In this document: piece by piece, positions 5,445-20,410 of the stretch | Numbering within the stretch: the first letter of the stretch is position 1 | Layout: each line of letters begins with the position of its first letter | DNA from: Dehalococcoidia bacterium | GTDB lineage: Bacteria > Chloroflexota > Dehalococcoidia > Lucifugimonadales > UBA3495 | DNA: 64,000 nucleotides | NCBI GenBank assembly: GCA_021295965.1 | Contig: JAGWBI010000002.1 | Location: forward strand, 18,110-82,109 | Direction of reading: 5' to 3' | Notes under the pieces: model-generated | The model's database searches: none | Seen by the model: only the letters and a program-made list of their open reading frames with translations | What the model was told of the DNA's origin: nothing | Position numbers and translations under genes: made by a program

Positions 5445-6497
5445 TCACTTATTGGCCTTGATCGAGCCTGCCGGTCCGTCGGTGATGCGGCCCACCACCG
5501 CAGCGCAGGGCGCGCCTTCTTCACGCAAGGCGTCCACTAACTGGCCGGCCCGATCGGCCGGCACCGATATCAGCAGGCCGCCGGACGTCTGAGCGTCGCA
5601 GAGCAGCAGTCGGTCTTCGTCGGTTAGTCCGTCGTCCCAACTCACCACGTCATTGACGCTGCTCACGTTGCGGTGCGTGCCGCCGGGGGCGATGCCGTTT
5701 TCCAGCAAGTCCCGCACGCCGGGCAGCACCGGCACGGCTCCCAGGTTTATTTCAGCGGCGACGCCACTGCCCTTCACCATGCTCTTGAGGTGTCCCAGCA
5801 ATCCGAACCCGGTGATGTCGGTAGCGGAGTTGACGCCAACGCGTTGCATTGCCTGGGCCGCCGGACGGTTCAGAGCGGCCATCGTCTGCACGGCGCCGGC
5901 CATCACGTCCGGATCAACCACGCCTTGCTTGCCGGCGGTGGTTATGATGCCGGTGCCGATGGGTTTGCTAAGGATCAAGACGTCGCCGGGCTTCGCGCCG
6001 GCGTTGCTGACCTGTTTGCCCGGCTCGACCAGCCCGATGACCGACAAACCATACTTGGGTTCCGGGTCGTCAACGGTGTGCCCGCCGACGATGAGGCATT
6101 CAGCCTCGGCCGCCTTGGCGTAACCACCCTGCAGGGTGCGTCCCAGTATCTCCTTGTCCAGTGACGCCGGGAACCCCACCACGTTCAGCGCGATGAGGGG
6201 CTTGCCGCCCATGGCATACACGTCGGACAGGGAATTAGCGGCGGCGATGGCCCCGAACTCGTAGGGATCGTCCGTGATCGGCGGGAAGAAATCTACCGTT
6301 ACGATGAGAGCCGTCTCGTCGTTCAGGCGATAGACGGCGGCATCGTCGCCGGTCTCGGCCCCCACCAGCAGGTCGGGATGCGACAGCAGCGGAACGTAAC
6401 TCAGAACCTGGCCCAGGTCCTCAAGGCTCAGCTTGGCCGCTCAACCGGCGCAGTGGGAAAGTTCGGTGAGGCGGATGGGGGTGTCGAGTTGGGTCAT
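5445..6497 (-). CDS. selD: Selenide, water dikinase SelD, selenocysteine-containing
   Basis: SelD makes selenophosphate from selenide and ATP, the selenium donor for Sec-tRNA. The conventional open frame begins only at 6365, but the same frame extends upstream through one UGA (6443-6441) to an ATG at 6497. The extended N-terminus reads ...TELSHCAG-U-AAKLS, which aligns with the E. coli active site HGAGCGCK: the UGA stands at the catalytic Cys17 position (here residue 19) and the essential lysine follows as K22. The body has LLVGAETGDDAAVY, the TVDFFPPI metal site and NSLSDVYAMGG. With Sec the length is 350, normal for SelD. The ATG overlaps the stop of the preceding small gene (ATGA), implying translational coupling. 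Annotating from 6365 would lose the active site. Confidence 0.93.
6401..6423 (-). promoter_or_regulatory. Putative bSECIS hairpin after the selD UGA
   Basis: On the transcript, starting about 20 bases after the UGA, GAGGACCT and AGGTTCT can pair around a GGGCC loop, with further pairing below a mismatch. Bacterial SECIS hairpins lie inside the coding region just downstream of the UGA with a G-rich apical loop, so position and shape fit. The exact fold is inferred by eye. Confidence 0.55.
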
Positions 6498-19097: not shown

Positions 19098-19823
19098 TTA
19101 ACTCGACTGTGGGGTCAGGGTGGCGAAGACGCCGAAGTGATCGGACAGGTCTTTCGGCTTATCCTTGCAATTGCTGATTGCGCCCACGGGTTCGGTGCGC
19201 AAGTCGGTGCTGATGGCAATGTGGTCTATGGCCTTGCCATCCTGAAAACCAATATTTGCGGTGATGATCTCGAGGCGTGATGCTATGACCGAACGCAGCC
19301 TGTCGCGTACACGATCTGGTGGCCCATTAGGGACGACGCCGATGCGTTGGTTGAAATCCCCCATCACTATCAGTCGGGAGTGGGTAATACGGTCAAGCAC
19401 GGCATCCAGGCCGTCAAGATATTCGAGATGGTCTTGCCATGCTCGGCGATTCCCGCGTTTCTTGGGTGTTCTGGAGTTGCGCCAGGGAATACAGACGCCA
19501 ATTACCGTGACATCTCCTATTGACGACTGGGTTGTTCCTGCCACGAATCGCCCCGGAGGAAGCGCCGAACTGCCTTTCCAATCAACTTTCCGCCACAGAT
19601 GACGAGACCAAAGCACCACCTTGCGCCGGCCGGGTGCGACCGGGTATCCGTAGTAAGGCTGCGGCCAAATAGCGTGGCCACCAGCGTGCAACAACTGGTT
19701 ACTGGTCTCGGTAAGGCAGATTATTTCCGGGCAATGGTCGCCAATTCGACGCAGAATTTCAGGGCTACGCTTCGATAGAGGCGTAGCCCATTTAACGTTC
19801 CAGTTCACCACGCCTAGGGACAT
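19098..19823 (-). CDS. Endonuclease/exonuclease/phosphatase (EEP) family protein
   Basis: A 241-residue protein of the EEP fold. NWNVKWAT near residue 8 carries the metal-binding Asn; PEIICLTET supplies the catalytic Glu. MGDFNQRIG is the classic GDFN motif, and the closing SDHFGV provides the Asp-His pair. This group cleaves phosphodiesters (DNA repair nucleases, sphingomyelinase-like phosphatases); the exact substrate is not clear. It has no signal peptide. It lies 22 bases after the UGSC gene and 2 bases before the 357-residue gene. Confidence 0.85.
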   Translation of the reverse strand: MSLGVVNWNVKWATPLSKRSPEILRRIGDHCPEIICLTETSNQLLHAGGHAIWPQPYYGYPVAPGRRKVVLWSRHLWRKVDWKGSSALPPGRFVAGTTQSSIGDVTVIGVCIPWRNSRTPKKRGNRRAWQDHLEYLDGLDAVLDRITHSRLIVMGDFNQRIGVVPNGPPDRVRDRLRSVIASRLEIITANIGFQDGKAIDHIAISTDLRTEPVGAISNCKDKPKDLSDHFGVFATLTPQSS

Positions 19824-19845: not shown

Positions 19846-20385
19846 CTAACCGCCGTTGGTCAGCATCTCGGCAATCTGACCCGCGTACTGGTGAGCAAGC
19901 TCCCGAACCTCCGGAATGGAGCGGGGCGCCAGCGGGCTGGGCAGGGCCAGGATCTGCACGGTCGGCATTCCCAGCGAAGAGGCGCGGGCGTGAGCTGCCC
20001 TGGTGAAGCTCTCGGTGATGACGCTGACGGACGGGACGCCGCGGGTTTCGGTAACTACTGTGTCGTGGAGACCCCACGCTGTGCAGCTCCCTCAATCCGC
20101 GATGCCGTGCACCACCGCATCGCACTGGGCCACCAGCTCGTCGATGGTATCGTCCGAGCACGGCGCGCTGAAGCTGAACTTGCGCAGGTACACCACCTTT
20201 TCAACAGCGTACTCTTCTTCAAGGATCACCTGTAGTTCCTGGAGAAAGTTGTCGGAGTGGTACTTCCGGTTCTCCAGCAGGCCGATGGTTTTCCCGGCCA
20301 GACCGGGCAGGCGCTGGGCAGAGTCGCGCTCGGCGGTCTGTTGCTCCGGCCTGGGGTCGAGTATCTGGATGGTGGCAGTGGTCAT
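19846..20385 (-). CDS. UGSC-family selenoprotein
   Basis: The frame opens at ATG 20385 (GGAGG nine bases upstream), meets a UGA at 20094-20092 and continues to TAG at 19846, 179 residues. Around the UGA it reads CDAVVHGIAD-U-GSC-TAWGLHDTVV, the U-G-S-C redox motif that names this family; homologues carry Cys or Sec at the U position. The downstream part (TETRGVPSVSVITESF, ARASSLGMPTVQI, LAHQYAGQIAEML) is well-formed protein. A hairpin with a GGUCU loop lies 16-30 bases after the UGA. The function is unknown; the motif suggests thiol/selenol redox chemistry. It sits between guaB3 and the EEP gene. Confidence 0.92.
20064..20078 (-). promoter_or_regulatory. bSECIS-like hairpin of the UGSC gene
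   Basis: On the transcript CGTGG-GGTCT-CCACG forms a five-base-pair stem with a GGUCU loop, starting 16 bases from the U of the UGA. E. coli fdhF has the same GGUCU apical loop, recognised by SelB. This supports selenocysteine rather than termination. Confidence 0.75.
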
Positions 20386-20410
20386 AGCGTTCCTCCGTAC
20401 AATCTTACAA

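Follow-up and report, generated by a model that had tools for sequence, protein, structure and literature searches.

UGSC proteins rank with the most abundant selenoproteins of ocean metagenomes: the GOS survey recorded 255 UGSC sequences with selenocysteine (Sec) and 21 with cysteine, found UGSC fused to a domain named Unknown_1, and called its fold 'likely' thioredoxin-like (PMC2398784). A 2026 review still lists UGSC as predicted and gives it no function (PMC13188914), in agreement with the initial annotation of the DNA described here, and no text on a UGSC function was found in the literature searched. Among enzymes of described chemistry, GrdB (selenoprotein B of glycine/sarcosine/betaine reductase, PF07355) and PrdB (of D-proline reductase), which belong to enzymes that cleave glycine and proline reductively, resemble the UGSC system: Sec is equally placed within a similar strand-Sec-helix segment, the motif is UxxC, some operons include genes for thioredoxin reductase, and the organisation is multi-subunit. 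The UGSC system differs from them in that it has no pyruvoyl partner of the GrdE/PrdA type, in that it has another partner, a protein designated HP357, and in that it occurs in aerobic lineages and haloarchaea.

The window, a stretch of 64,000 nucleotides of contig JAGWBI010000002.1 of a Dehalococcoidia bacterium, contains an additional member of this already published family (Table 1). The read-through protein matches the Pfam UGSC model (PF24696) end to end with 172.2 bits (cut-off 25) and NCBIfam NF041046 with 130.6 bits (cut-off 125), and it contains the motif Sec98-G-S-C101, which bears out the initial annotation of a UGSC-family selenoprotein with Sec at the UGA. The full-length match, the motif and a SECIS element past the UGA are all as in the published family, and no feature speaks against membership; the partner is encoded separately here, and the thioredoxin-like fold assigned in 2008 is not supported. 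The initial annotation gave neither the strand (minus) nor the HP357 gene 750 bp downstream, and it counted 81 more residues after GSC: the long tail is present, but the 81 residues are those after Sec, GSC included.

Table 1. Features of the UGSC locus and of the Sec machinery in the window
Feature	Position	Strand	Remarks
UGSC-family selenoprotein gene, 179 aa	19846..20385	minus	ATG at 20385; stop TAG at 19846-19848
Sec98 codon TGA, first residue of UGSC 98-101	20092..20094	minus	TGA in 13/13 congeneric orthologues
SECIS hairpin CGUGG-GGUCU-CCACG, 5 bp and 5-nt loop	20064..20078	minus	
Shine-Dalgarno-like GGAGGA, five bases 5' of the UGSC ATG	20391..20396	minus	Identified from sequence
HP357, UGSC partner protein, 357 aa	18022..19095	minus	Without Pfam or NCBIfam model
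Endonuclease/exonuclease/phosphatase-like gene, between UGSC and HP357	19098..19823	minus	
selD, selenophosphate synthetase, Sec machinery	5550..6497	minus	5550 marks where the family match ends and is no stop codon

The codon and the sequence around it are conserved as expected of a translated UGA. TGA is invariant in the 13 congeneric orthologues, among which dN/dS is 0.068 upstream of this codon and 0.086 downstream; therefore the part after TGA is under the same protein-level constraint. The initial annotation had envisaged two findings that would speak against Sec, homologues that end at the UGA and a genome without Sec machinery. No such homologues were found, since every orthologue from the related genomes fetched reads UGSC, and the same genome encodes selA (546 bits), selB (356 bits), selD (379 bits) and tRNA-Sec (69 bits), all above cut-offs. 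The selD gene of the window is itself a selenoprotein gene (MTQLDTPIRLTELSHCAGU..., in-frame TGA at 6441-6443).

In E. coli fdhF, the SECIS is a short stem that follows closely on the UGA and is capped by the loop GGUCU; the hairpin of the window gene has the same loop and a short stem near the UGA, but differs in stem sequence. With a GGUCU loop of 5 nt that begins 18 nt past the UGA and a stem of 5 bp, it lies within every published bSECIS limit (loop of 3-9 nt, stem of 4-16 bp, a G among the first two bases of the loop, a distance of 16-37 nt to the UGA; PMC13188914). All five pairs are present in one register in 127 of the 133 TGA-containing UGSC homologues, versus about 10% on average (maximum 19.5%) when the same proteins are synonymously recoded, and 128 of the 133 have GU at loop positions 2-3, which the four Cys homologues lack. 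When 45 distinct sequences are aligned, 96.4% of cells pair and both sides have changed in four of the five pairs; the covariation score is reached by none of 500 shuffles, nor do slides come anywhere near it. Synonymous divergence among the congeneric orthologues is 0.07 over the ten hairpin codons versus 0.43 further downstream. The minimum free energy of the hairpin taken alone is not significant (z -1.54), and an Rfam search found no match to a SECIS model. The GGUCU-loop bSECIS proposed at the right distance from the UGA is thus upheld by the published limits, by stem conservation and by covariation. Other UGSC genes have loops AGUGU, AGUAU and similar; the loop rule of the family is NGUNU, and GGUCU is specific to the orthologue group of the window gene and its close kin.

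As far as sequence can establish it, the UGA of the window gene is translated as selenocysteine under the direction of the adjacent SECIS. Some plasmid annotations do end the UGSC gene at the UGA, as they would if the codon were an ordinary stop and the similarity downstream a relict or chance. That reading can be practically dismissed, being already contradicted by the present data: the low dN/dS past a TGA that all 13 orthologues retain, the SECIS covariation, the complete Sec machinery and the Pfam match over the full length. Truncation by automated gene calling, which the initial annotation anticipated, occurs for example on plasmids of Acidovorax sp. T1 and Paracoccus ferrooxidans, where annotated hypothetical proteins (L212:7419-7709 and L218:5378-5665, respectively) are UGSC proteins cut at the Sec codon; IS1071 is close by in the former, and selB is about 4 kb away in the latter.

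The family is carried by 30 of the 40 genomes searched. That its members have Sec or Cys, as the initial annotation put it, holds for the window gene (Sec) and for Cys homologues found elsewhere, and UGSC or CGSC is the motif in the great majority of homologues; HUGSS, which lacks the second (resolving) Cys, occurs in some copies. Nine copies are present in this genome (from ten matches, two of them belonging to a single frameshifted gene); eight contain TGA, and the Sec codon has been deleted from the remaining one. The latter paralogue (L062:6074-6610; C45:46594-47082) has lost exactly 21 bp (GxGDUGS) and retains a SECIS hairpin (CGTGC-AGTGT-GCACG), which is either a fossil SECIS or the product of an assembly error. 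Another copy (L067; C37:13278-13743) has a frameshift just past UGSC and no longer contains the SECIS hairpin; its HP357 neighbour is still there.

In nearly all cases UGSC adjoins, or is fused to, HP357, whose conservation as a UGSC partner is reported here for the first time. HP357 has an invariant Cys84 and a nearly invariant Cys182; it has no credible match in Pfam, NCBIfam or PDB sequences, and no relatives were found on viral contigs. In this genome, eight of the nine UGSC genes adjoin or are fused to an HP357 homologue, and the ninth is at a contig end. Scanning genomes with HP357 alone yielded 80 loci, which belong to Chloroflexota, Proteobacteria, Rokubacteria, Bacillota, a haloarchaeon and others. 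In 73 of these loci a UGSC gene of the same strand is no more than 1 kb away, the median gap being 95 bp; more than 15 loci consist of a single open frame of UGSC, linker and HP357. Evolutionary distances of UGSC and HP357 correlate over 83 pairs (r 0.735; at most 0.145 in 1000 permutations) and also among seven paralogue pairs of this genome (r 0.745; 0.04% of permutations), and therefore the pairs were duplicated together. It is well supported that UGSC and HP357 are one functional unit, made of two subunits or one fused chain, and HP357 may be the Unknown_1 domain of the 2008 GOS survey.

No third conserved neighbour was found across the 80 loci, only common catabolic families. The endonuclease/exonuclease/phosphatase-like gene between UGSC and HP357 has similar genes in congeneric orthologous loci only, and was therefore left out of the UGSC-HP357 system; it evolves fast (41-54% identity, versus about 90% for its neighbours). 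ClpC, GuaB3 and DnaE, encoded next to the window gene, were considered as functional partners and rejected as conserved synteny of housekeeping genes.

Thioredoxin system genes accompany the pair on some annotated plasmids: Arthrobacter sp. ERGS1:01 has the operon trxB-trxA-HP357-UGSC, which is of the Cys type, Roseovarius sp. THAF8 has HP357-UGSC-trxB, and Variovorax sp. SRS16 has trxB upstream of a UGSC-HP357 pair. The TrxB proteins of these three loci are above the equivalog cut-off, and two more neighbours are TrxB-like below the cut-off. TrxB-like places number about 0.1 per Mb in the plasmid collection (715 in 7.3 Gb), so that finding several of them in the surroundings (about 15 kb) of some sixteen loci is unlikely by chance; large catabolic plasmids may, however, be richer in TrxB-like genes than the collection average. 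Of the 80 genome loci, two have a TrxB, at a distance of about 5 kb, and none of the UGSC-HP357 pairs of this genome has one nearby. Other neighbours are TRAP transporters, CoA transferases, thiamine pyrophosphate enzymes and members of the isocitrate-lyase/PEP-mutase family; TctC transporters make up 14 of 113 neighbour proteins, and both TctC and TRAP are transporters for organic acids.

The AlphaFold2 model of UGSC (pLDDT 94.7, pTM 0.87) has five strands alternating with helices and places Sec98 between strand 90-96 and helix 99-114. The beta-alpha-beta-alpha-beta-beta-alpha order of the thioredoxin fold and its antiparallel hairpin are absent, and the structural matches of the model are flavodoxin-, Rossmann- and receiver-like. 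The predicted fold is therefore flavodoxin/Rossmann-like and not the thioredoxin fold proposed in 2008; in the model, this common arrangement shows no function and speaks against a thioredoxin fold. A natural UGSC-HP357 fusion was modelled at pTM 0.92, and the fold search with it covered the UGSC half only. Comparison of UGSC with PDB sequences gave only chance-level matches.

A distant relationship of UGSC to GrdB was detected by aligning profiles with hhalign, using GRDB sequences from related genomes extended through their own TGA. The match of UGSC to GRDB continued past the TGA (score 51.1, E 8e-7, probability 92%) covers about 86 columns, and Sec falls on Sec unforced. The best of 60 column shuffles scored 19.8 and unrelated families at most 26.6, and the match persists (36.7) when the Sec and Cys columns are masked; the comparison with PrdB-like sequences is weak (35%). 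With PF07355 alone the comparison gives no match, as this model does not reach the Sec codon but ends just short of it, and none of 25 UGSC proteins matches the PF07355 profile. These alignments support common ancestry of the UGSC and GrdB catalytic segments, without membership of UGSC in the GrdB family. HP357 showed no detectable relation to GrdE/PrdA or to the N-terminal part of GRDB by hhalign, and no PF09338 (GrdE/PrdA) gene was found in this genome, which is 87% complete; therefore the parallel to GrdB ends at the catalytic segment. A short PrdB-like selenoprotein with UPLC, UPRC or UPIC is present in many relatives (L094-L116) and in this genome (C51:75165-75590).

The fold and the GrdB match bear on the possibility that UGSC is a thioredoxin-fold thiol:disulfide oxidoreductase or a peroxidase-like antioxidant, with HP357 as its protein substrate or scaffold. 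The UxxC motif and the trxB and trxA neighbours would also fit a disulfide relay, and the 2008 survey leaned the same way (PMC2398784), but the confident model with its five strand-helix alternations and no antiparallel hairpin, its structural matches and the profile match to GrdB make such a protein unlikely.

We lean instead, with modest confidence, towards UGSC-HP357 as a thioredoxin-fed selenolate reductase that would cleave a C-X bond of a small organic acid in a manner like that of GrdB and PrdB. HP357 would bind, or help to bind, the small organic (acid) substrate; the Sec98 selenolate, located at the N-terminal end of a helix of the Rossmann-like domain, would attack or reductively cleave the C-X bond, X being N, halogen, S or O; a selenenyl-sulfide would form between Sec98 and Cys101 as Cys101 resolves the intermediate; and NADPH, TrxB and thioredoxin would reduce it again. 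Where a genome has several pairs, these would be paralogues, each acting on a different substrate. The proposed chemistry has a published parallel in a GrdB-like operon that has been implicated in C-F cleavage of fluoroacetate (PMC10838667). The catabolic neighbours, such as the TctC transporters and CoA transferases, also speak for the proposal. Feeding by thioredoxin is suggested by the trxB and trxA genes of the Arthrobacter, Roseovarius and Variovorax loci, and this part of the proposal is weakened in that most loci have no TrxB close to the pair; the likeness to GrdB is limited by the short span of the hhalign match and by the weak PrdB-like comparison. The main difficulty for a reductase lies in the HUGSS variants without the resolving Cys and the MGTS variants without both residues.

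The same variants would fit a non-redox enzyme: if UGSC-HP357 were, for instance, a lyase, a hydrolase or a racemase, Sec would serve as a nucleophile or in acid-base catalysis and hence be replaceable. In Sporomusa and Vibrio fusions MGTS stands in place of UGSC, HUGSS copies do without the second Cys, and the fold is common to many non-redox enzymes. Such an enzyme is nonetheless improbable, given UGSC or CGSC in the great majority of the family, the trxB operons and the retention of Sec despite its cost.

Taken further, UGSC and HP357 could represent a large class of selenoenzymes that has gone unrecognised: reductases in two parts, distantly akin to those of glycine and proline but present in aerobic bacteria and haloarchaea, that would reductively cleave persistent organic acids, with the nine copies of this Dehalococcoidia lineage as a catabolic toolkit; this broader proposal is speculative and on balance doubtful. 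The nine copies suggest substrate diversification, and comparable enzyme expansions are known in related SAR202 bacteria, in a study whose main text is without selenium (PMC6946804). An obligate-looking partner, a predicted fold, a relative of known chemistry and a likely electron donor together permit a first concrete biochemical test for UGSC; new here are the HP357 partner, the flavodoxin/Rossmann-like fold with the GrdB match, the trxB operons on plasmids and the nine copies.

Two further arrangements were observed among the fused genes. In one Chloroflexi MAG, three genes for UGSC-HP357 fusions lie in tandem, and each has a UGA of its own (L177:3350-8726). The fusions with MGTS, which has neither Sec nor Cys, in Sporomusa termitida (L210:8320-10044) and Vibrio europaeus (L214:5386-7071) are both located near aconitase X / DUF126 genes.
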